Made by a program: the position numbers and the translations under genes
The notes under the pieces: generated by a model
Told to the model about the DNA's origin: nothing
Databases searched by the model: none
What the model saw: the letters and a program-made list of their open reading frames with translations, nothing else
Part shown: positions 2,822 to 15,307 of the stretch, in pieces
Numbering within the stretch: the first letter of the stretch is position 1
Layout of the letters: every line of letters begins with the position of its first letter
Source of the DNA: a virus
DNA length: 24,932 nucleotides
Virus record (IMG/VR): IMGVR_UViG_3300021425_000182
Location: 1-24,932 of that record
Direction: 5' to 3' (one strand)

Positions 2822-3235
2822 TTAATAGAATAGTATAGGCTCTGGATCTGTTAATAAGCCATATTTCCAGACCTGTAAATGAATGTGGTTCTGCATCTCT
2901 GGATGATGATATTCCGCTATATTTTGTGCCGTGCCAACGTGATTGCCTATAAATATCTTTTGCCCTTTCTTTATGCTATCAGCTGGCAATACATACATCA
3001 ACCATACTCTATAAATTGGCCCTGTGATTTCTATGTACCTGAATTGTAAGGCATTGGCATATGGATAGCCTATCTTCGTTATAATGCCGTGTATAGGGCT
3101 GAATACTGCTTCATTAGGTATAGACACCAAGTCTAATCCTTTATGCTTCCTATGGCCTCTATTTGCGCCATACCATCCATTTCCAGTTTCATCGCTACCC
3201 CTTAGTTCTATGTTAGTCAATGGTTTATGTATCAT
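2822..3235 (-). CDS. M23-family (LytM-like) endopeptidase, probable endolysin
   Basis: 137 residues, a compact LytM-type domain. The zinc-binding H-x3-D motif is seen as HKGLD (H31, D35) and the H-x-H motif as NHIHLQV (H117, H119), with typical flanking segments (SPIHGIITKIGY; IKKGQKIFIGNHVG). Such enzymes cut peptide bridges in peptidoglycan. There is no signal peptide, so access to the wall would need a holin. The position corresponding to the YxHL histidine of many M23 enzymes is replaced (YVLP, 81-84), which also occurs in some phage members as far as I recall. It overlaps the upstream gene by 4 bases (ATGA), implying coupled translation in the lysis unit. Confidence 0.85.
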   Translation of the reverse strand: MIHKPLTNIELRGSDETGNGWYGANRGHRKHKGLDLVSIPNEAVFSPIHGIITKIGYPYANALQFRYIEITGPIYRVWLMYVLPADSIKKGQKIFIGNHVGTAQNIAEYHHPEMQNHIHLQVWKYGLLTDPEPILFY

Positions 3236-3621
3236 TTCATCATGTTAGCCTTAAACCTGTAGTAATTCTGTAGCTTGCTGATATCTATTTCAAGCAATGC
3301 AGCCTCCAAGATATCATATTGATATTTAGTGATTCTTTCTTTCTTTAGATCCTTATTTAATGCCTTTAGTTCTTTCCGTTTTTTCTTACTGGCTTTTATC
3401 TTCACAATAGGTTCAGGACTGTTAGATGGATCTTTAGCTATCACCGTTGACACAATCTTGACTATATCACCGATCATCGCTTGTGGCAACACCTCCAAAC
3501 TATCTTTCTTAATAGCTTCCTGTGCTGAAACCTTACAGGTAAATAGGCAAGTAGCAAGCAGGACAAGCCAAGCTATTAAAACGGCCTTTTCTGATTTCCC
3601 TAAATATCTAAATTCTTTCAT
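3232..3621 (-). CDS. Small membrane-anchored or exported basic protein, lysis-region accessory
   Basis: 129 residues. Residues 13-29 (AVLIAWLVLLATCLFTC) form a hydrophobic segment preceded by positive charge. VSA-Q at 31-34 could be a signal-peptidase site, or the cysteines at 25/29 a poor lipobox. The rest is Lys-rich and helical (KASKKKRKELKALNKDLKKER, about 76-96). Topology and position between a protease and an endopeptidase would suit a spanin-like or lysis-regulating protein, but there is no family match I can name. It overlaps both neighbours by 4 bases (ATGA). Confidence 0.7.
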   Translation of the reverse strand: MKEFRYLGKSEKAVLIAWLVLLATCLFTCKVSAQEAIKKDSLEVLPQAMIGDIVKIVSTVIAKDPSNSPEPIVKIKASKKKRKELKALNKDLKKERITKYQYDILEAALLEIDISKLQNYYRFKANMMK

Positions 3622-4496
3622 ATGTTCTTAATTGCTTCTTTAAGTGTGGTCAATAACTTTTCTTTACTATCCGTAGGATTTACATCAATAGAAAGCCATC
3701 CAAGGCATATTAATAATTGTTGCTTTGTTGCCCTGTTGATATAAATGCTGTTTAAAAAGTAGTGTGATAAAAACCGCTTTAGCTCAACATTTACATTTAC
3801 CTCTGGCTCATCTGGATAAGGATACTGAGCCGCAGCAAAGGCTTTATCAGTTTCGCTTAACACCTTGTTTTGTGGCATTCCAACACCGTTTAAAGTCAAA
3901 TCAGCATCAAAGAAATATGCCATTATGCTATTCTTATCCAAAGGTGTTGCGCTAATGCCTTCCGTGCTTAACACATTTAAAATATTGTGGTCTATTGTCT
4001 TTTTGTCCCAAAAGTTAGGCGCACCGCCAAACCTTTTATATACCTTTTCCTTATCCCATTGAATCGGCTCATAGGGGTTTTGGTGTTCGTGTGGCATTGC
4101 CAAAGCACCATGCCCAAATTCATGTAAAATTGTGCTATGATCATTTGTAAGCATATCCTGCGCCAACCATCCAAAATTCATTGTTGCTTGGCCTCGTCTT
4201 ACATATGTGCTATCTGTGCCAAGATATGACCATGATCCTAAATTAGGGTTAGCAGTAATCCTAATGTTTGCCGTATCAAATCCGTCTATTACCTTAAACT
4301 TTAAGTTTGCATACTTCAACCATTCTGAAGCAGCATTCATTACAAAGTCTTTTTCTTTTTGCGAAAAGTCTTTAAACTGAATTGTGATTGTTTCGCCTGT
4401 AGTATACTTTTTATTGATATATACTATTCCCTCCATCGCCATAGCGTAAACGCCTTTAGGCTTCTCCAATTGAGGTACATAACATATTTTACACAT
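3618..4496 (-). CDS. Metzincin (astacin-like) zinc metalloprotease
   Basis: 292 residues. The zinc site is HEFGH (125-129) followed by GALAMPHEHQNP with the third His at 136. The Met-turn SIMAY is at 190-194. A reprolysin/astacin-like N-terminal half (SEWLKYANLKFKV, ANIRITANPNLGSWSYLG) precedes them. In standard astacins the motif is HExxHxxGxxH; here there is one extra residue before the third His and the glycine is lost. Residues 1-20 include a CxxC (CKIC) and no clear signal peptide. The C-terminal 60 residues after the catalytic domain look like a small helical domain. Substrate unknown: host surface protein, virion protein or lysis function are all possible. A terminator sits just upstream (4509-4534), so its own promoter or read-through is needed. 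4-base overlap with the next gene. Confidence 0.82.
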   Translation of the reverse strand: MCKICYVPQLEKPKGVYAMAMEGIVYINKKYTTGETITIQFKDFSQKEKDFVMNAASEWLKYANLKFKVIDGFDTANIRITANPNLGSWSYLGTDSTYVRRGQATMNFGWLAQDMLTNDHSTILHEFGHGALAMPHEHQNPYEPIQWDKEKVYKRFGGAPNFWDKKTIDHNILNVLSTEGISATPLDKNSIMAYFFDADLTLNGVGMPQNKVLSETDKAFAAAQYPYPDEPEVNVNVELKRFLSHYFLNSIYINRATKQQLLICLGWLSIDVNPTDSKEKLLTTLKEAIKNI

Positions 4497-4560: not shown

Positions 4561-4920
4561 TTATGAACTTTCTTCTTTCACTTTTGGCTTTGTAAGCGAC
4601 AATATTAAATCATAAATCCCCATTGTCGAAAGTACCGCCATAAGGTTCTCTAAGATGCCCCCAACGCCTTGATAAAAGGCAATAATAACAACCGCCAAGC
4701 CTCCTGCCACGACTGTTGCTGCTGTTGGGATTGTCCCAATTTTTGGAATCACCTTTGATATTTGCCCCCAAATATAAGTAATTAACCCAATTACATATAA
4801 ATGAATTTGATCAAATGTTGCCGTGCTGAAGTCAATATCAGCCCCTTGCGCATATGCAGCACAATAGCATAAAAAAAATGCTGTTATTGCCAGCAATGTT
4901 TTAAAATTAAAATATGTCAT
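4561..4920 (-). CDS. Membrane protein, candidate holin
   Basis: 119 residues. The N-terminus is a signal peptide or first membrane segment (residues 7-24, ending AAYA-Q). Further hydrophobic stretches are at about 40-52 and 63-84 (PTAATVVAGGLAVVIIAFY), and the C-terminus is charged (KPKVKEESS). Small size, multiple membrane segments, charged tail and neighbours (endopeptidase, metalloprotease, coiled-coil membrane protein) fit a holin or related membrane-lesion protein. The identification is by topology and context only. It overlaps the preceding 80-residue gene by 4 bases and is followed by a terminator. Confidence 0.68.
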   Translation of the reverse strand: MTYFNFKTLLAITAFFLCYCAAYAQGADIDFSTATFDQIHLYVIGLITYIWGQISKVIPKIGTIPTAATVVAGGLAVVIIAFYQGVGGILENLMAVLSTMGIYDLILSLTKPKVKEESS

Positions 4921-5159
4921 AAAACTCCTATTTGTTTAAAAAAATTAGTTAAATCTTCATCCAAAATGAAAATATACATAAAGGCAAACATTCCGCTAAA
5001 GTTCAACCCTGTTGCAGCTTCTACCCTGTAGGCCTTTTCATTTAATATATAGTGATCCCCTGTATTTAATGCCTTTTGATCCGTCTTAATTTCATTCAAT
5101 ATCTGTGCGCCCTCTAATCCTGTTTCCTCGCTGTAAATTCTATGTAGGTGATAAGTCAT
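4917..5159 (-). CDS. Small hypothetical protein, 80 residues
   Basis: Unknown function. The sequence contains a predicted beta-rich middle (GDHYILNEKAYRVEAATG) and an aromatic, hydrophobic stretch (FSGMFAFMYIFILDED, about 54-69). That stretch could be buried or membrane-interacting but contains acidic residues at its end. It overlaps both the cupin gene upstream and the holin-like gene downstream by 4 bases, so it is clearly part of the same translationally coupled unit. Confidence 0.65.
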   Translation of the reverse strand: MTYHLHRIYSEETGLEGAQILNEIKTDQKALNTGDHYILNEKAYRVEAATGLNFSGMFAFMYIFILDEDLTNFFKQIGVL

Positions 5160-5641
5160 AATGTAAAGTAATCCATGTTATAATGCTTTGTCTTTAACTT
5201 TAAATAGTGCAAGGCCTCATCTATTGATATTGTTCTAACCCAATCCACAACCAACAGGCAATCTTCTTTTTTTATGTTTTCTGGCTCATGTGGCTCACCA
5301 AATGCATAAACCATCTTACCTCCTACCGTTACCGTTTTGCTCATCAAGTTGTCATACAATTCACCTTGCAAAACTGTCGCAACTTCAACAAAGTCATGAA
5401 AATGCGCTGGTATAAATCCCTTACCTGAAGGTATTAAAGTATGAAATCGCCTATGTGTCTTATCATTTAGAACCATTCTATTAAATGTTCCTGCTATCTC
5501 TCTAACCTCATTTACTTGCCAATTCTTTATAATGTCTTGATCCCATAAAACCTCGTTTATAAATTCCAGTTTCTTTATCCTTTTTCGATATGAATTTATA
5601 AGAAATGAAATTTTATCAAAATCTATAGATTTGGCATTCAT
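5156..5641 (-). CDS. Cupin-fold metal-binding protein
   Basis: 161 residues. The first cupin motif is seen as GFIPAHFHDFVEVATVLQG (75-93): H80, H82 and E86 would be metal ligands with the expected spacing and final Gly. The second motif is PHEPEN (117-122) with H118 as fourth ligand. An N-terminal 60 residues, helical and basic, precede it. Cupins include dioxygenases, isomerases and sugar-binding proteins, so the reaction cannot be assigned. The gene sits between a coiled-coil membrane protein and a small unknown in the lysis region, with 4-base overlaps on both sides. It might modify a small molecule or surface sugar; this is inference. Confidence 0.78.
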   Translation of the reverse strand: MNAKSIDFDKISFLINSYRKRIKKLEFINEVLWDQDIIKNWQVNEVREIAGTFNRMVLNDKTHRRFHTLIPSGKGFIPAHFHDFVEVATVLQGELYDNLMSKTVTVGGKMVYAFGEPHEPENIKKEDCLLVVDWVRTISIDEALHYLKLKTKHYNMDYFTL

Positions 5642-6047: not shown

Positions 6048-7964
6048 TTATGTTTTCTTTAATGTCCCCGAAAAGTAACCTTGACCTGTGCTATATGTTT
6101 GTGTTACTGCTTGCGAAAAGTAAATCTCTATATAATCACCATTTGAAACACTTACCCCACCGCTTACGCCAGTAGGCTGATATGTGCTTGCCCTTGATGA
6201 ATCATTATTTAATGTACCTCCTGAAATGTTAACAGTACTACCATTTTTTCTAATCACTACGCCCCCTTGACCTGAACCCGAAGCATTATTTAAATAGGGA
6301 ACATTGTAATTAAATAGAAAATGTCCCGATGTACTAAACTCTATTCTATCCGTCACCAAATCAACTGTCATGCCGCCTCCATTAATCGTTACACCGCTGA
6401 TATTCATTTGTCTAAATCCTGTACCAGATATTAATGAACTTGTTCTACCATAAATAATCGTAGGTGCTGCACTTGATGTTGTTATTATCTTACCATCTGA
6501 TTGCACGGATAAATTATATGCCTCTGATCCTGACTTGCCAGAACCGTATCCACTTAGATAAACATCTGTTGTTGCCCTTGGAATCATTATTGCGTCAACA
6601 TCAGTTGTTGAGCTATAACTACCAATGTAAACCCTATTTGGCCCACCATCATACTTTAGATATCCCCCAAAAGATTGCGCAATACCTTCATTTAATCTTA
6701 AAAAAGTTGTACCTCCATTATTACTGTGAAAATATGTGTTATTATCTCCTGTATTTTCAGCAAAATTAAGTTCAAAGCCGTTATATGTTACAGTTCTATC
6801 ACTTGTCAAAGTGCCGTTGGTGTTATATATGTTACTTATGCCACCGCCTGAAACTTCAAAATCAAAATGATTGCCTACATCATCATAAGTTACAATTATA
6901 CCTGTTTCCGTGTTGCCGCTAACCATTGAGCCGACAAAGTCTTGCACCTGTTCTTGTGATAAATTAGTGTTGTCTAAATAACCTTCTAAACTTTGAGTAT
7001 ATATAGCAGCATCATTTGATAAACTAATCTCTAAATTATTTCCAGAAAGTCCAAAAACGTCAATAGTTTGCAATTCATTAGATGTACTATTATCAGTAGC
7101 AACAAAATCAAATTCATCATTATCATCGTCATAAGTCACGCTGATACCGCTTTCTGTATTACCTGTAACCATTGAACCTACATAATCTTGCACTTGCTCT
7201 TGTGATAGATTTGTATTATCCAAATAACCACTCAAATCTACCGTAGATGCATCATTAGTTAAACTCAAGGTGTTACCAGTTAAGCTTAGATCCTGTATTT
7301 CATTAGAGCTATCATTATCGTTATCAGCAATGTTAAATGTTGTATTAGTACCTCCACTAATTGTAATAGTTCTATCAGTACCATTAGCACTACTACCTAA
7401 ATCCTGCGCATCTGTATTATCCAAATAACCACTCAAATCTACAGTAGTACCGTCATTAGTCAAACTCAATGTGTTGCCAGTTAAGCTTAAATCTTGTGCG
7501 TCTGTATTATCCAAATAACCACTTAAATCTACTGTAGTAGCATCATTAGTTAGGCTTAAAGTATTACCGCTCAAGCTTAAATCTTGCGCATCTGCATTAT
7601 CTAAGTAGCTACTTAAATCAACAAAGCCCCCATTTTCTATTGTCAACAAATTACCGTCTAAGCTGATAGTTTGATTGTCTGTGCCAGTTGCAACATTTTG
7701 AATTCCGCTGACATAGTATTCTACTGTATCTATTTGCGCACCGATTTTAACCGATAACTTATGGTCATCATTGCCTAATGTTCTACCAACAATTGTATCA
7801 ATGTCTATAGCACTATTTATGTGTATATGCTGATATCTTCCAGCTATATTACTAAGCAAAATAGAGCTAATAGTATCTGCATCCTGCAACTGCCTTGGCT
7901 TAATGCCTTGCCCCTGTAATGAATAAGCTACTATTAAAAATATTACCGCAAATAAATACTTCAT
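6048..7964 (-). CDS. Tail fibre/adhesin with signal peptide, repeats and C1q-like tip
   Basis: 638 residues. It begins with a typical signal peptide (1-19, cleavage around LQGQ-G). Residues about 96-333 hold at least five related units of about 29 residues with core NTLSLTND..TVDLSGYLDN. An inserted pair of LSQEQVQD(Y/F)VGSMV segments (about 253-266 and 335-348) is each followed by a V(T)YDD beta segment. Residues 379-401 (IYNTNGTLTSDR..) match a module in the 482-residue neighbour. The last 110 residues (FSTSGHFLFNYNVPY, IRKNGSTVN, GDYIEIYFSQA) resemble a C1q/TNF-like jelly roll, a likely receptor-binding tip. Trimeric fibre function is inferred from these modules. The signal peptide is odd for a virion protein. 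Four bases separate it from the next upstream gene. Confidence 0.8.
   Translation of the reverse strand: MKYLFAVIFLIVAYSLQGQGIKPRQLQDADTISSILLSNIAGRYQHIHINSAIDIDTIVGRTLGNDDHKLSVKIGAQIDTVEYYVSGIQNVATGTDNQTISLDGNLLTIENGGFVDLSSYLDNADAQDLSLSGNTLSLTNDATTVDLSGYLDNTDAQDLSLTGNTLSLTNDGTTVDLSGYLDNTDAQDLGSSANGTDRTITISGGTNTTFNIADNDNDSSNEIQDLSLTGNTLSLTNDASTVDLSGYLDNTNLSQEQVQDYVGSMVTGNTESGISVTYDDDNDEFDFVATDNSTSNELQTIDVFGLSGNNLEISLSNDAAIYTQSLEGYLDNTNLSQEQVQDFVGSMVSGNTETGIIVTYDDVGNHFDFEVSGGGISNIYNTNGTLTSDRTVTYNGFELNFAENTGDNNTYFHSNNGGTTFLRLNEGIAQSFGGYLKYDGGPNRVYIGSYSSTTDVDAIMIPRATTDVYLSGYGSGKSGSEAYNLSVQSDGKIITTSSAAPTIIYGRTSSLISGTGFRQMNISGVTINGGGMTVDLVTDRIEFSTSGHFLFNYNVPYLNNASGSGQGGVVIRKNGSTVNISGGTLNNDSSRASTYQPTGVSGGVSVSNGDYIEIYFSQAVTQTYSTGQGYFSGTLKKT
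6966..7679 (-). repeat. Coding tandem repeats (about 87-90 bp) in the fibre gene
   Basis: Successive units encode ..L(T/S)GNTLSLTND(A/G)(T/S)TVDLSGYLDN(T/A)DAQD. Three units run almost back to back (about residues 96-186), a fourth follows at about 224-252 and a diverged fifth at about 300-333. Near-identical DNA stretches (such as GTATTATCCAAATAACCACT on the plus strand) recur. These could shorten or lengthen the fibre shaft by recombination. Confidence 0.8.
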
Positions 7965-7967
7965 ATC

Positions 7968-8495
7968 TTAATTCTTTTTTTGCCTAAACTCTTGATTGTA
8001 CTTCGCCCTGTATGTGTTAGCCCATTGTTGCCATATAAGCTCCCTTTGCCTTCTCTTGCTTACGCCTTCTTTCTTTAGAGCATCCCATGCTTCTGTAACT
8101 CGCTCTCTTGCTCTTTCGACATCCTCAACGGCCCTATCTATTTTTGATTTATCTGCAACATAATCACCTAATTCAAGCCCAAGGCGAATGCTTATCGTAT
8201 CAATGATATAATTAGTTAATCGTATAGCTTGCCCTTCGTCATACACAACTATAGCTGTGTCAAGCTGAATAGTATCAACTTCTACTATAGTTATAATCTT
8301 TGCATCATTATCTAATAACAATTGCTCAAAGCGTTTTCTTTTTCTTTGAGTTACCTCTTCTGCGCTTAATGAATCTATGTATGTTTTTTGAATTTCTGTG
8401 TAGGTGCTATCAGATTCCAACACATATTCTACATCATCTTGCGCATAGCTAAATGTTGCTAATGCTAAGAATAAAAATATAATTCTAATTTTCAT
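7968..8495 (-). CDS. Exported protein of unknown function within fibre cluster
   Basis: 175 residues with a clear signal peptide (MKIRIIFLFLALATFSYA-Q, cleavage after 18). The mature part is charged and mostly helical: a Lys/Arg-rich stretch near 50-58 (VTQRKRKRFEQ) and a second at 130-175 (RARERVTEAWDALKK, KRRQREL). A beta-like segment rich in Thr/Ile (TIVEVDTIQLDTAIVVYD) lies between. No family recognised. It sits 2 bases after the S74 fibre gene and 4 bases before the repeat fibre, so it may help assemble or export those proteins. That is inference from position only. Confidence 0.7.
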   Translation of the reverse strand: MKIRIIFLFLALATFSYAQDDVEYVLESDSTYTEIQKTYIDSLSAEEVTQRKRKRFEQLLLDNDAKIITIVEVDTIQLDTAIVVYDEGQAIRLTNYIIDTISIRLGLELGDYVADKSKIDRAVEDVERARERVTEAWDALKKEGVSKRRQRELIWQQWANTYRAKYNQEFRQKKN

Positions 8496-8497
8496 AT

Positions 8498-9946
8498 TTA
8501 TTGATTTTCTAATTCTTCAATTCTTGCTTCTAAACTATCTATTAAAGCTTGTTGATCTTTGATTGCTTGATGTAGTAAGCTAATCATTTGCGTATAATCT
8601 AAGCCTAATGTGCCAGCTTCGTCAACTTCTTTCACTACGTGCGAAAAGTGTTCTTGTACATTCTGTGCCTTATAGCCTGACTCTACCCTGTCACTACCTT
8701 TCATTGTAAACAAAGTTGGATTGATAGCTATAACCTTTTGCAATGCCGAATCAATTGGCAAAAAGTTTTCTTTAAGTCGCTCATCCGACACATCTGTAAT
8801 TGTGCCTGTATACTCTATGTCGCCTATTACATCAAATTCAACACTCGGAGTGCTTGTGCCTATCCCTACGTTGCCCGAATTGCTTATATAAGCCCTTGCA
8901 TTCCCTCCTGCGTATAATCTTAATTGATCTCCATTTGCTCCTATTCCAGTTAAAGCCGTTGTTGTGTTATCCGTAAATCCTATATTAGCATTGGCATCCG
9001 TACTTTGAAAGTTTGCTGTTGTATTAACTCCATCCGAATTAACATGAAGAGTATTTGACGGACTCGCTGTACCTATACCTACTTTGCCTGTTCCGTCAAG
9101 CGAAATATCAGTAATTTCTACAATATTACCATTAGCACTTGCCCCTAATAAATTTGCATTATTACCTGAAAAGTTTAATGCCCCATATTCAGGCAATATT
9201 ATTTCACCATCAGACTCAATCTGAAAGACACTATTTGTTACATTACTGTTATTAGCAAGATCTATTTCAAATCTCGTTGGTCTTTGTGATGTCGTCCATA
9301 TCCCTGAATTATAAAAAGTGAGCGAACCGCCAGTTTTACCATCACTCCCTGTATATGCCCCAGCTTCTAATCTTAATAATTTATGATCATTTTCTTGAAG
9401 TATAGCATCCACACCGTTTGAATATCCAAGTTTATAGCCTAAAAAAGATGCTCCAACATTTTTGCTATTATGATAATTGTATGATCTAATGCTTGAACTT
9501 TGCCCAATTCCTATATTTGTAACATAACGCCCATCAATGTCTGTATAGTGACCGCTATTATGAGTTGTTCTAAATTGACCTCCCCCACTTACATGAAGCT
9601 TCGCACTTGGGCTGCTCGTTCCTATGCCTACGTTGCCTGTGCCTGTAAAGCTTAAATCATATCCATCGCTTACAATCTCCCTATCACCTGTTAATGTTCC
9701 ATCTGCTATATATATGTTATCAGTAACCATATTCGCCAAACTATCACTAATATCAGATCTAAGCAATGCAGCCGTGTCAGCTAATTCACCCCTAATTATA
9801 TCCAATTGGCCTACTATATAATTAGTATCGGCAACACTTCCACCAATTCCACTTGTGTCAATCACCTTTACATAAACCTTCTTTACATTTTGCGCACTTA
9901 AATTAATAGATAAGAATGCTGACAAAATCATTATCCAATGTCTCAT
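8498..9946 (-). CDS. Tail fibre/spike with C-terminal S74 intramolecular chaperone
   Basis: 482 residues. Residues 1-18 form a signal peptide (ending INLSA-Q). Three G(N/K)VGIGT(S/A)(S/T)PS modules (about 104-114, 287-297, 358-368) are the repeat usually seen before S74 domains in fibres. The C-terminal S74 chaperone starts at SDERLKE (387-393): S387 and K392 have the spacing of the Ser-Lys pair that cleaves the chaperone from the trimerised fibre. YKAQNVQEHF and LGLDYTQMISLLHQAIK complete the domain, and a coiled coil ends it (462-481). The ATG at 9946 gives a 44-base overlap with the previous gene; an internal ATG at 9931 would also keep the signal peptide. Confidence 0.88.
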   Translation of the reverse strand: MRHWIMILSAFLSINLSAQNVKKVYVKVIDTSGIGGSVADTNYIVGQLDIIRGELADTAALLRSDISDSLANMVTDNIYIADGTLTGDREIVSDGYDLSFTGTGNVGIGTSSPSAKLHVSGGGQFRTTHNSGHYTDIDGRYVTNIGIGQSSSIRSYNYHNSKNVGASFLGYKLGYSNGVDAILQENDHKLLRLEAGAYTGSDGKTGGSLTFYNSGIWTTSQRPTRFEIDLANNSNVTNSVFQIESDGEIILPEYGALNFSGNNANLLGASANGNIVEITDISLDGTGKVGIGTASPSNTLHVNSDGVNTTANFQSTDANANIGFTDNTTTALTGIGANGDQLRLYAGGNARAYISNSGNVGIGTSTPSVEFDVIGDIEYTGTITDVSDERLKENFLPIDSALQKVIAINPTLFTMKGSDRVESGYKAQNVQEHFSHVVKEVDEAGTLGLDYTQMISLLHQAIKDQQALIDSLEARIEELENQ

Positions 9947-10490
9947 AAAAAAATATTGTATTCCCTGTTATGTAATATTCGCTAAAATGTGCTGGTGAAG
10001 AAGCAACCTTTTTGCAGCGCACCCCATTTATATGTATGTTAATTCTGTTCATATCTGCTGGCAATGTAAATGCTGGTGTATAAGATCCAACACTCATCAC
10101 CATTTCTACCCCATCAATATTGGGTACTATTTCAGATAAATCAACCGTGTTGCCGTTTGTGATGCTTAAATCATTACCATTTAAATCTAATAACTGATCA
10201 CCCCAAACTAATCCATCTACATAGTATTCAATGGTATCAACTCGATCATCTTGTATATATCTGATATAGTTACTGTCTACCCTATTGGCTACAGAATCTT
10301 GCACTATCTGCAAGCTGCTTGCCCATGAAATTGAATCTTTATGAATATATCTTTGCTCCCCTATAGAATCCGTCAACACCATATAATTTGCCGTGTCTGC
10401 ATACTGCAAATCGCTTAAAAATACTTGTGCTGACACATTGCCAAAAGCAAATATTAATAAAAATATTGATATGTATTTAAGCATAATCAT
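9903..10490 (-). CDS. Short exported fibre-like protein
   Basis: About 195 residues from the ATG at 10490, chosen because it gives a 4-base ATGA overlap with the tail-tip gene; an in-frame ATG 12 bases upstream (10502) is possible. A signal peptide (..ISIFLLIFAFGNVSA-Q) is followed by a segment, DTIEYYVDG, matching DTVEYYVSG in the 638-residue fibre. NGNDLSITNGNTVDLSE follows, a single copy of the same repeat type. The C-terminal 60 residues (INIHINGVRCKKVASS, NTIFFYETLDND) resemble a small beta-rich tip. It looks like a shortened relative of the long fibre, perhaps a fibre base or an accessory adhesin. Its 3' end overlaps the next gene by 44 bases. Confidence 0.72.
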   Translation of the reverse strand: MIMLKYISIFLLIFAFGNVSAQVFLSDLQYADTANYMVLTDSIGEQRYIHKDSISWASSLQIVQDSVANRVDSNYIRYIQDDRVDTIEYYVDGLVWGDQLLDLNGNDLSITNGNTVDLSEIVPNIDGVEMVMSVGSYTPAFTLPADMNRINIHINGVRCKKVASSPAHFSEYYITGNTIFFYETLDNDFVSILIY

Positions 10491-13261
10491 AAGATGAACC
10501 ATGTAAAAAAAATTGGTGTTCCTGCCTCTATTTCACGCCCTAAATTGATTTGCAAATTTACAAAATCTATGCTAAAGTGTTCTGGCCTTGTAGGTGTGGC
10601 ATTATAAACATAGTTGCCACTCGCCCGAAGGCTTCCAATGAACATTGCAATCATTTCTGTAGTTGTGTAAATACTTGGATCTGGCAATCTATAACCAGTT
10701 GTAGGCAGCGTAATTGTAGACCCTGCAAAAGTATCTGTATAGTAGTAATACCTTTCTAAAGTGCCGCCTCCTGTTTCTTCTGTCACCGTGCTTACTGTTG
10801 CAGTTGTGCCACCTCCATTATTTGACGCACCGTTTAATGTCTTACTATTATCACTTTCAGCACCAGCATTTTTTATGTAGGTAATAGAGTTCATTCTTTC
10901 ATAGAATGCACTTATTCTATACTCGCACCATTGGCCAGCAATTCTATTATATACGCTGTTCCATGTACCTGAAACCATCATATAGACCGTTGTTCCATCT
11001 GGTGTAGTATGGCCTAAGAATTGATCTGATACCCGATATTCATGGTTTATAATCTCCATCGGCTTTGCTACCCTGTTGGCAAGCAGTTGAGTGATAGCCA
11101 TTTGCCGACTCCTGCCACCATAACTATTAGGCTGCACCCATTCAGAACCGTCATAAACCCTTAATGCGCCTCCATCATTTTCTATTATTGTATTATCGCT
11201 AAACCTTGTCTTAAAGCTATACGTTTCGCTATTATTCTCACTATACACTTTCGTGCATACGCTATCGGTGTAATACTTGTCATCCTCGGCACGATCTAAA
11301 GTCGTTAGCTGTATACTATCAATTGACCATTGCAAGGCCGTTAGAACCGTTTCTGTATACTCTGTTTGACTTACATTCACATAAGTTCTATCATACTCCA
11401 TGCCTACTTCAACATCTCCTGTATATGCTAAAGCTGGCAAATCAAATGATACTTCGATAATATGTTCTTTGATTCCATCCGATTGTAAAGGGCCGTGAAT
11501 ATCAATCTTGTTAGAACTATCTGCACTATATTCAGGCAGGCTATAAATCGCTACTGCTTGCTTTGCTTCGTTCAAATTTTCAATCTTCAAGTAATCGCTG
11601 CCAAGCTTTAACACACCTAAAAATGCATGAAGGAATTTAGCCCCCGAATTTGCTAATGTAATTAGTGCTGCTGGCTTTATAACTGTACCTATCCTTATAA
11701 CGATCTTTAGTCTATGCTCACGATCTGGCAAGTTCGCATTCTTAATAGTGTATAGTTGTCCATATGTATCCGTAGGAAATTGAGCAGCAGCACCAGCCAA
11801 AACATTTGCCGTTGTCAATCTATCGTAACATAATTCTAAATGCCTTGCAGCTTGCACATATGTATATTGCCCTTTCCCTATACACTCTGGAATGGTGCTA
11901 TTATCGTCATATACATCAAGCGTATTAGTAACCGCTTGTCTAAAATTCATATCCTTATCATATGCATTTCCTGTAGTTCTATCGTTGTAGGGCAAAATGT
12001 AATATTTACCATTTCGATATTCCACGCTTCCTGCACATTGTATAGCAATTTCCTTTAATGCATCATAACAACTTATAGCCGTTGGTGGATTGCTTGTATA
12101 ATCTGTTATAAATCCGTTATAAGGAATGCCGTTATAGTCTTCACCTTTTGCTGCCCCTTGATTTGTTTCTGCTTCAGGGACATTAACTACTATAACATCC
12201 GTGCCGCTTGGATATTCATTAATCGTAGGTAGTTGACTAAATATATTTCCAATGTGATCTTTAAAAGAAGCATATACATTATCTATGCTTACAGGTGCAT
12301 CAATTACATTTTCAAAATATGATGATTCCTCTACGGTGTATTCTATATAGCTATTATTATATGACCACGTAAGTTTGCAAAATACAGTTTCACCGTCTAA
12401 AACTTCTACGCTTTCTGCTTCTATGCTTGCCGTAACCCTCTTACTACTTATAGCATTACTGGTGTTGTCACCCACTATAAATCGTAAATCTTGTGGATCT
12501 GCAAGTTGCACGGTAGAACCGTGAATATCAATTTTATATAGGCTTAATTGCAATAAAAAGCCTTGTGAAGTCATAGCAAGTACAAAGGCTGGTGTGATTC
12601 CATTCGCATTTATATAAGCACTCGCATCACCAATAATTGAAACGTAGGCTTTGAAGTCATACCTCCCAACCTTATCAAATGCCCCTGTAATAAAATCAAA
12701 GCCACTTGTGAAGTTATGTACGTCTTGTTTCCAAGGTGATCTATCGCCAGTTGCACTTAGATAAACTTGGCTGCTATCTGGCTTTATTCTAAACTTCCCT
12801 AATTGCTGCTGATCTATATAGTCTTGCACTTGTGCCGCCTCATATTGCACATTCTTTAAGTAGCTTAATCCATCTCTGGCCGTTACCTTAAATAATCGCT
12901 TGCCCTCTATAGGTGTTGCATCCATGTAAGTATCATCAATAGACAACATCCCTATAAAATCAATTGCCGCCCTCTTGTATATTTTTACAAAAAATTGCTT
13001 TTCATCGGCTTCTTTTAGATCATCATAAAAATCTAAATGCGCTTGTATAGAAATTATAAATTCAATCTCTAATGTTGTAGGCACTATGAATTGGAATAGC
13101 TCAAGCTCTTCGCCCTCAAATTTCTTTAAGATACCTGAACCGCCATTTGTGCTTATAGCTATTTCTGTACTTGCACCACTAAAATTTATATCATGAATCT
13201 CAACATCATAATCATAATTGTTTAAATAATCCCTATATGTGCTATGTAGCCTTTTAGCCAT
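10487..13261 (-). CDS. Large tail-tip/baseplate hub protein
   Basis: 924 residues, directly after the tape measure, where siphoviruses encode distal-tail and hub proteins. The N-terminal 180 residues (EIHDINFSGASTEIAIS, FFVKIYKRAAIDFIGML, RLFKVTARDGLSYLKN) are beta-rich and similar in style to the hub-type tail proteins of Bacteroidetes phages. The middle is mixed, and the last 120 residues contain a Thr/Gly/Ser linker (NNGGGTTATVSTVTEETGGG) leading to a small C-terminal domain ending FFTWFIL. No signal peptide, unlike the four genes after it. It probably binds the tail end and anchors fibres. Exact structural role not resolved. Confidence 0.75.
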   Translation of the reverse strand: MAKRLHSTYRDYLNNYDYDVEIHDINFSGASTEIAISTNGGSGILKKFEGEELELFQFIVPTTLEIEFIISIQAHLDFYDDLKEADEKQFFVKIYKRAAIDFIGMLSIDDTYMDATPIEGKRLFKVTARDGLSYLKNVQYEAAQVQDYIDQQQLGKFRIKPDSSQVYLSATGDRSPWKQDVHNFTSGFDFITGAFDKVGRYDFKAYVSIIGDASAYINANGITPAFVLAMTSQGFLLQLSLYKIDIHGSTVQLADPQDLRFIVGDNTSNAISSKRVTASIEAESVEVLDGETVFCKLTWSYNNSYIEYTVEESSYFENVIDAPVSIDNVYASFKDHIGNIFSQLPTINEYPSGTDVIVVNVPEAETNQGAAKGEDYNGIPYNGFITDYTSNPPTAISCYDALKEIAIQCAGSVEYRNGKYYILPYNDRTTGNAYDKDMNFRQAVTNTLDVYDDNSTIPECIGKGQYTYVQAARHLELCYDRLTTANVLAGAAAQFPTDTYGQLYTIKNANLPDREHRLKIVIRIGTVIKPAALITLANSGAKFLHAFLGVLKLGSDYLKIENLNEAKQAVAIYSLPEYSADSSNKIDIHGPLQSDGIKEHIIEVSFDLPALAYTGDVEVGMEYDRTYVNVSQTEYTETVLTALQWSIDSIQLTTLDRAEDDKYYTDSVCTKVYSENNSETYSFKTRFSDNTIIENDGGALRVYDGSEWVQPNSYGGRSRQMAITQLLANRVAKPMEIINHEYRVSDQFLGHTTPDGTTVYMMVSGTWNSVYNRIAGQWCEYRISAFYERMNSITYIKNAGAESDNSKTLNGASNNGGGTTATVSTVTEETGGGTLERYYYYTDTFAGSTITLPTTGYRLPDPSIYTTTEMIAMFIGSLRASGNYVYNATPTRPEHFSIDFVNLQINLGREIEAGTPIFFTWFIL

Positions 13262-13264
13262 TTT

Positions 13265-15307
13265 TTATTTTATTCTGCCTTCTCTTTTTTGCTGAATCTT
13301 CCAAGCTGCGTACATATCAGATCCTTTAAGTTTGATTTCTCCAAACTCTACGGCCAAGCCGCTACCGTATGAAACTGGCTGCATATTATAGGCCATTGGC
13401 TTCATTACATCTTGCAACATCCCACTTAACTTGCTTAATGGTGCAATCACCTCTGGATCTGCACTTGCTCCTTTGTTATCCCCTACTAATGCCAATGTAG
13501 GCCCAAAGGCCAAGCCCCCTTCCGCTAAAGCTGGTATGGCTGCACTTATCTTTGATTTTACCGCCCCTGCTAAAGCCTTCATTGCTATACCAGCAGCTAT
13601 TGCTGCAAATGGATTTTTAAATTCCAAAGCCTGTTTTATTGCAATCATCCCCACACCTGTTTTAATTGCTGCCTCCCCTACTTGCTCCAATATTCCAACT
13701 AAAGGCAGCATAAATGCCCTTGCTGCATTCCCCATTGATGCCGTTCCATCAACTAAGCCAGCTAAACTATCTGAAAAAGCCCCAAAGCTTTCTGATAAGC
13801 CACTTGATATAATACCGCCTATTTCGGTAACATTATCAATTATCCCCGATTTAAGCTCGGCAAAAGTTGTGTTCATGCTTTGCCCCTTTTCCTTCATTAC
13901 TTCATCAAGGCTGCTTATATTCTCGCTAACTAATTTGAATGACTGTGCAGTAAGCTCTGGTAAATCTTTTATTTCTTTAGATATAGGTGCTAAAGCTCCC
14001 CCTGTTGTGCTTGGCGTTTCTATAGCAAAATCAGAACCCCCCAAATCATTATCGGTAGCTAATGGTGTAGTAGGTATTTTTAAAAGATCCTTAAACTTCC
14101 CTTTTAGTGTGTCAATTGTGTCGCCAATGCTTTTAAAACTTGGCTCGTCAATCATATCTGCTGCTTCAAGCTTTTCATCCGCAAAAGCTTCCGAAAGATC
14201 AAACACTTGAACCCCTAAGAATTGCTGTAACTGCTCTAACTTAGATAGTATGAATTTAATGCTTGTAGTAACCTTATTTTTTACGGCTGTCCACATATTT
14301 TGGAATCTACTACTAAATGCCTCCCAATTTGCCCACACATATAAAGCCGCTGCGCCTAATGCCGCTAAACTCAACGCTACAGGATTTAAGGCCAAAACTA
14401 TAAGGTTTTTCATCATTCCGATTGACCCTTGTATAACACTAACAAGTTTTGCTATCGCCAATATAGCTGGCCCGATTGCTGCCGCAAATGCTGCCTTTCT
14501 TATTATGTTCTTCTTCGTTTGCTCATCTAAGCTGCTAAAGTATCTTGTAAGATTGCCAATGTAGGTAGTTAAGTTAGTGATGACTTCTTTTAAATCAAAT
14601 GCGTTTACAATCTCCTTGCCAAGCTCCGCCAACGCTAAAGTGATATTATCTCTTAGTGTTGACATTTTACCATTTATAGTATTTGCTTGCCGCTCAATCC
14701 CCCCTGCAAATTCTGTGTTTCCAATATCTAATAGATACTTTTGTATTTCTGCACTATTCTTTTGAACTGTTGTAGTTACGCCCCTAAATGTAAATGCTAC
14801 CTTATCCCCTTCTGATCTTGCTTTTATACCAAACTCCTTTAACCTCTCAAACTCGCCTACTGCTGCATCTGCTACGGCCTCAACCATCTGATTTAAGCTC
14901 TTACCCATTGACGAAGCAGTATTTCCATAGCTGGTTAAAGCCTCCATTGAAGGATTTAAGCCCATATTCTTCAGCTTAATAAATCCCTCTGTAACCTCTT
15001 GCAGTTGGAATGGTGTTTCTGCCGTAAACTTAGTAATCTGTTTTAAAGCTTGTTTTGCCGCTGTTTCTGACCCTCTAAAGGCAGTTACTAAGCTGGCCTC
15101 TAATGTCTCCATATCTGCTGCAACCTTCACCGCTCCACCGCCTAAAGCAGCCATAGGCAAAGTTAGATTCTGCGTTAGGCTTCTGCCTGTCTTCTCCAAA
15201 TTGCGCTCAAACTTTCTTAGCTGCTTTTGCACCTTATTCAAAGACTTCTCAAAGCCTTTTACTTGCGCCCCTATAACTACGTTAAGTTGTGCTAATGATT
15301 TGCCCAT
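13265..15307 (-). CDS. Tail tape measure protein
   Basis: 680 residues. The N-terminus is a coiled coil (VKGFEKSLNKVQKQLRKFERNLEKTGRSL, about 17-45) followed by a tape-measure core (AALGGGAVKVAADMETLEASLVTAFRG; FQLQEVTEGFIKLKNMGLNPSM). Hydrophobic Ala/Leu-rich segments at about 270-325 and near 560-600 suit membrane interaction at DNA ejection. By the usual rule of about 0.15 nm per residue the tail would be near 100 nm (inference). The start overlaps the end of the chaperone GT frame by 26 bases, a common arrangement. Confidence 0.92.
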   Translation of the reverse strand: MGKSLAQLNVVIGAQVKGFEKSLNKVQKQLRKFERNLEKTGRSLTQNLTLPMAALGGGAVKVAADMETLEASLVTAFRGSETAAKQALKQITKFTAETPFQLQEVTEGFIKLKNMGLNPSMEALTSYGNTASSMGKSLNQMVEAVADAAVGEFERLKEFGIKARSEGDKVAFTFRGVTTTVQKNSAEIQKYLLDIGNTEFAGGIERQANTINGKMSTLRDNITLALAELGKEIVNAFDLKEVITNLTTYIGNLTRYFSSLDEQTKKNIIRKAAFAAAIGPAILAIAKLVSVIQGSIGMMKNLIVLALNPVALSLAALGAAALYVWANWEAFSSRFQNMWTAVKNKVTTSIKFILSKLEQLQQFLGVQVFDLSEAFADEKLEAADMIDEPSFKSIGDTIDTLKGKFKDLLKIPTTPLATDNDLGGSDFAIETPSTTGGALAPISKEIKDLPELTAQSFKLVSENISSLDEVMKEKGQSMNTTFAELKSGIIDNVTEIGGIISSGLSESFGAFSDSLAGLVDGTASMGNAARAFMLPLVGILEQVGEAAIKTGVGMIAIKQALEFKNPFAAIAAGIAMKALAGAVKSKISAAIPALAEGGLAFGPTLALVGDNKGASADPEVIAPLSKLSGMLQDVMKPMAYNMQPVSYGSGLAVEFGEIKLKGSDMYAAWKIQQKREGRIK

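Follow-up and report, generated by a model that had tools for sequence, protein, structure and literature searches.

Predicted export signals on a tail-fibre gene block suggest assembly of phage fibres outside the cytoplasm

IMG/VR virus record IMGVR_UViG_3300021425_000182, a 24.9-kb stretch of DNA (24,932 nucleotides, hereafter the window) from an uncultured phage known here from sequence alone, encodes four consecutive proteins at the place of virion tail fibres, each of which begins with a predicted Sec signal peptide. We consider it rather likely that the distal fibres of this phage undergo export and cleavage, fold in the periplasm, and are attached to head-tail particles at or after lysis. 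The basis for this proposal is the signals themselves and the glutamine (Gln) junctions that follow them, the gene order, the protein domains, the separation of fibres from a tail adaptor, and the recurrence of the pattern in related phages.

A minus-strand module runs from the portal, protease, and capsid genes through head-tail genes to the tape measure and tail tip, followed by the four signal-bearing genes, small genes, and an M23 peptidase. The tape-measure protein (13265..15307, minus strand), recognised through tblastn to annotated tape-measure proteins, is followed on its 3' side by a tail-tip protein of 924 amino acids (aa; 10487..13261, minus strand) that is homologous to the tail tip of IMG/VR contig L096 (E 1e-6). 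The four genes (10490-6048, minus strand) come directly after these two and overlap or abut one another. Fibre 1 (9903..10490, minus strand; 195 aa) is opened at 10502 in the open reading frame (ORF) list, but the ATG at 10490, which overlaps the tail-tip stop (ATGA), fits better. Its predicted signal peptide, MIMLKYISIFLLIFAFGNVSA followed by Q, is encoded at 10428..10490. Over its first ~110 mature residues, fibre 1 is homologous to the corresponding part of fibre 4 (E 1e-9), and its final ~55 residues match domains that recur in the C-terminal part of the L096 tail tip (E 3e-4); because of this composition, it is perhaps a connector. A direct homology between the tail tip of the window and fibre 1, suspected by eye, was unsupported by BLAST and appears only via L096.

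Fibre 2 (8498..9946, minus strand; 482 aa) combines a predicted signal peptide (MRHWIMILSAFLSINLSA followed by Q; 9893..9946, whose coding DNA has 44 bases in common with the 3' end of gene 1) with GIGT stalk repeats and a C-terminal S74 intramolecular chaperone (Pfam PF13884, E 5e-9), in which the SDxxxK motif is intact (SDERLK, residue 387). It matches PHROG tail fibre families and, weakly in the PDB, the secreted mosaic adhesive trimer (MAT) fibres of Bdellovibrio. The third protein (7968..8495, minus strand; 175 aa) is predicted to be exported through the signal MKIRIIFLFLALATFSYA followed by Q (8442..8495), has no fibre repeats, and has no family match at E<0.02 in Pfam or PHROG. Fibre 4 (6048..7964, minus strand; 638 aa) carries the predicted signal MKYLFAVIFLIVAYSLQG followed by Q (7911..7964), 'DNTDAQDLSLTGNTLSL' stalk repeats, and an adhesin-like C-terminal part, and has a homologue in L096, a signal-bearing fibre of 1407 aa (E 3e-19). 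Fibre repeats and adhesin or chaperone domains are thus present in fibres 2 and 4 and partly in fibre 1 and are absent from the 175-aa protein, which does not look like a fibre by sequence and should not be named as one. Structure prediction for mature fibre 1 and the 175-aa protein gave unusable models (predicted local distance difference test values of 34 and 44, respectively), which were set aside.

Signal peptides were scored with a home-made log-odds scorer of the n-, h-, and c-regions. All four proteins have a basic n-region, a hydrophobic core, and small residues at -3 and -1, as predicted for the Sec/signal peptidase I (SPI) type, and score 14.7, 10.5, 17.2, and 13.3 in gene order. In a null built from 5374 positions inside these same proteins, the 99.5% and 99.9% quantiles were 8.5 and 10.8, respectively, and each of the four N-termini scored at least as high as the best of 300 of its own shuffles, with fibre 2 merely tying. 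The scorer separates the two classes of S74 protein, since all 18 real S74 ORFs inspected from Bacteroidota chromosomes carry signals (scores of 11.8-17.4) and none of the ~40 S74 fibres from IMG/VR phages does. Beyond the four genes, two more in the window (4920-4561 and 3621-3232) bear signals; the remaining genes all score <5, and no upstream head or tail gene has a signal. A first-pass annotation had described four consecutive fibre-type genes with Sec signals after a tail-tip protein without one. The run of signals is borne out, far above chance (all four segments accepted by the scorer, at 10.5-17.2), and is extended by the two genes downstream, and the tail tip indeed scores -19.1, but the third gene does not visibly encode a fibre.

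The same annotation had pointed to A-Q or similar junctions, and Gln stands after the predicted cleavage site in all four proteins, as it does in the two further signal-bearing genes. Bacteroidetes hosts show such a Q-rule, in which Gln follows signal-peptide cleavage (PMC5837995, PMC10653852), and the window junctions, as predicted, follow it. When the +1 residue was left unscored, gene 2 dropped to 8.0 and the site of gene 4 shifted by two residues, to between QG and I; the exact cleavage site of fibre 4 is therefore ambiguous between these two positions. An [AGS]Q junction at residues 14-28 occurs in 25/25 distinct signal-bearing fibres from named phages and tail-tip loci, compared with 15% of 254 non-signal ORFs in IMG/VR contigs. 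This motif count replaced an earlier count of +1 Gln with the site picked blind to +1 (12/26), in which the scorer slides past the site.

The pattern recurs in Bacteroidetes phages, for which the first-pass annotation had proposed a survey. Cellulophaga phages phi3:1, Nekkels_1, phi13:2, phi10:1, phi19:1, Ingeline_1, and phi39:1, which span several phage families, each encode between two and five signal-bearing fibres or lyases in a row in the tail module, and nearly all of these proteins are predicted to be cut before Gln. Virion membership is established by record annotation for three of these relatives: tandem mass spectrometry (MS/MS) marks 10 of 11 signal-bearing fibres as virion proteins (phi39:1 gp25-26, phi10:1 gp91-94, and phi19:1 gp101-104), and small signal-bearing non-fibre proteins outside the block (phi19:1 gp111 and phi39:1 gp31-32) lack the mark. 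Among IMG/VR relatives of fibre 4, 10/14 loci are signal bearing, usually in runs, and contig L096 has the gene order of the window, with tape measure, tail tip, and an ATGA-overlapping signal-bearing fibre. The trait is patchy, as no signal was found on the fibres of phiST, phi14:2, phi18:1, and phi46:1, or on those of Flavobacterium 11b, Bacteroides B40-8, Polaribacter P12002L, Nonlabens P12024L, and Riemerella RAP44.

Where fibres are shared, their signal peptides vary between phages chiefly by synonymous changes. Near-identical fibre starts (MKKTIYILSILLLTISGVSA and MKHTISIVLFFILSLGLNA, each followed by Q) were observed in phages of different families, namely, phi13:2 (L060), phi10:1 (L062), phi19:1 (L115), Nekkels_1 (L059), and Ingeline_1 (L063); the signal and the fibre start therefore travel together between phages. 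A mature N-terminal motif shared universally across phages was not found. Another signal-bearing fibre N-terminus has three invariant cysteines soon after the cleavage site (L095 6569, L103 6754, L097 6486, L105 3559, and L104 5553), which suggests possible disulphide formation outside the cytoplasm.

The arrangement of the attachment part was compared across the 25 IMG/VR loci whose tail tip is of the phi39:1 type. In this clade, the adaptor motif NLGTTxxDKTGDGAKxAGxxINxNF comes after the tail tip. In 11 lineages, the motif forms the start of a long, signal-less fibre (410 aa or more), and in 4 lineages, it sits on a separate 98-209 aa protein, with signal-bearing fibres coming next. Signals are thus confined to lineages in which fibre and adaptor are separate proteins (4/4 versus 0/11; Fisher p 7e-4, treating lineages as independent, which is true only roughly). 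Such a split would be expected if the attachment part stays in the cytoplasm while the distal part is exported.

The following sequence of events would account for these observations. Head and tail, including the tail tip, would assemble in the cytoplasm, while the distal fibres would be made as Sec/SPI precursors and exported. Cleavage before Gln would probably be followed by capping as pyroglutamate by the host glutaminyl cyclase. The fibres would then trimerise in the periplasm, with the S74 chaperone helping fibre 2, a plausible step because S74-bearing MAT fibres work outside the cytoplasm (PMC10769870). Lysis, by breaking the inner membrane and wall, would let tails meet and bind the ready fibres, with fibre 1 perhaps serving as the connector between them. 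We infer translocation, cleavage, capping, trimerisation, and the place and time of attachment. Export followed by attachment during or after lysis is nevertheless the best supported of the four options raised in the first-pass annotation, because the signal-bearing fibres of relatives are annotated as virion proteins by MS/MS and because the adaptor is separate and unexported exactly when the fibre carries a signal.

Several points weigh against this proposal. The window is a 24.9-kb fragment from an uncultured phage whose own evidence comes from its DNA. MS/MS detection is silent on the mature N-terminus, and fibres stuck to particles or vesicles could contribute to it. The short adaptor protein of the phi39:1 clade is missing from the window, and fibre 4 matches the MS-detected phi39:1 gp25 in one short motif only. 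Finally, many Bacteroidetes phages have fibres without signals; export is therefore unneeded for fibre function in these hosts.

The main competing explanation is that an infected cell or lysogen exports the fibres and displays or sheds them, as an adhesin or for aggregation, as decoys, or to block superinfection, with their presence in virion preparations being secondary. MAT proteins are surface-displayed trimers with S74 or related domains in which the signal is directly followed by a conserved domain (PMC10769870), and the weak match of fibre 2 to solved MAT structures agrees with such a role, as do the widespread signal-bearing S74 proteins of Bacteroidota chromosomes and the published view that Q-rule proteins in Porphyromonas phages modify the host outer membrane (PMC10367356). 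However, the genes lie exactly at the virion-fibre position, with other fibre genes not seen in the window, 10 of the 11 fibres in relatives are MS/MS virion proteins, and fibre splits from tail adaptor where the signal appears. Neither Pfam nor NCBIfam matched a C-terminal sorting domain of the type IX secretion system, which counts against display and led us to reject the proteins as cargo of that system. We therefore regard display as unlikely.

The signals could also be functionless relics of fibres captured from secreted host adhesins, with the usual assembly in the cytoplasm. S74 is present in 38/148 Bacteroidota genomes, and because secreted S74 proteins are common there (18/18 inspected), capture from host proteins is a possible origin by sequence; the S74 domain of fibre 2 is equally close to cellular and phage homologues and leaves that origin undecided. 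Relics would decay, however, whereas the signals persist in all members of each block in several phage families, where the changes are mostly synonymous, and a functional Sec signal would redirect its protein regardless, so the relic explanation appears quite improbable. In the chromosomal proteins (L148-L167), Q-rule signals are common on S74 fibre proteins, and many begin QVPQGFNF after the signal, forming one conserved family. Uncleaved or incompletely exported signals that anchor the fibres at the inner membrane or on the tail, an option also raised in the first-pass annotation, would fit the hydrophobic N-termini by themselves and have a parallel in signal-anchor-release endolysins, which use uncleaved export signals (PMC6116005), but the nearly universal small SPI-type residues followed by Gln would be pointless in an anchor and make this very improbable.

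Other features of the window concern lysis and the identity of the phage. The product of 4561..4920 (minus strand; score 18.1) has a predicted signal ending in YA before Q and hydrophobic segments after it, and its position suggests that it is probably lysis or holin-like. The signal-bearing protein at 3232..3621 (minus strand; score 17.1), with SA before Q, adjoins the M23 peptidase, to which the Pfam M23 match belongs; a lysis function is likely, and the protein is perhaps spanin-like. Between them, 3618-4496 (minus strand) encodes a 292-aa protein that contains a metzincin-like zinc motif (HEFGHGALAMPHEH), lacks a signal peptide, and had no Pfam match at E<=1; it is an unusual, protease-like neighbour of the lysis genes. 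The product of 5156-5641 (minus strand) resembles a small cupin-type protein by eye (HFHDFVEVATVLQGELYD), and PHROG gave no match. The window is probably a genome fragment, because no terminase was recognised in it. Relatives of the primase and of the fibres, together with the style of the signal peptides, point to a member of the Bacteroidota as host. Exact-peptide scans of IMG/VR with the tail tip, major capsid protein, and fibre 2, and of GTDB genomes with the tail tip, returned no relatives, and by this measure the phage is divergent.

In the textbook view, tailed phages complete their assembly in the cytoplasm. For some tailed phages, tail assembly is probably completed outside it. We see an even balance for the broader proposition that a wide set of Bacteroidetes phages builds two-compartment virions, in which cytoplasmic heads and tails are joined at or after lysis to Sec-exported, pyroglutamate-capped periplasmic fibres and the fibre gene is split into an adaptor and an exported part. 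If true, host export, signal peptidase, and glutaminyl cyclase would be phage host factors, and the envelope of infected cells would hold free receptor-binding proteins before lysis. Fibre swapping between unrelated phages would be easier, because the exported part need not suit cytoplasmic assembly. Signal-bearing phage genes of these hosts hitherto left as unknown would also gain a candidate function.

Tail fibres are a known kind of protein, and what is unusual here is the route. A search of the open literature turned up no account of virion fibres of tailed phages that carry export signals, and target proteins of phage diversity-generating retroelements are reported to lack signal peptides (PMC6199706). 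The nearest published case is that of Porphyromonas gingivalis phages (proposed Nixviridae), which like the window have genes with Q-rule signals, although these were read otherwise, as outer-membrane modifiers rather than virion fibres (PMC10367356). Conventional S74-chaperone tail fibres share the S74 domain, the GIGT repeats, and the position downstream of tail genes, but none of those checked has a signal peptide. The Bdellovibrio MAT proteins resemble fibre 2, the only S74 protein of the four, in having a signal, a stalk, and an S74 C-terminus, and they have a shared domain directly after the signal, where fibres 1 and 4 have a domain in common with each other; they are predation adhesins encoded by the cell and are not known from virions, and their sequence similarity is weak, but they provide a precedent for S74 fibres folding outside the cytoplasm. 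Cellulophaga phi10:1 and phi19:1 (Assiduviridae) and phi39:1, whose records do not mention an export signal, differ from the window in that short, non-exported proteins separate their tail tip from the fibres and in that the fibre sequences are hardly related where compared. Like the window, however, all three carry a block of Q-rule signal-bearing fibres or lyases right after the tail-tip genes, and theirs is annotated as part of the virion by MS/MS.

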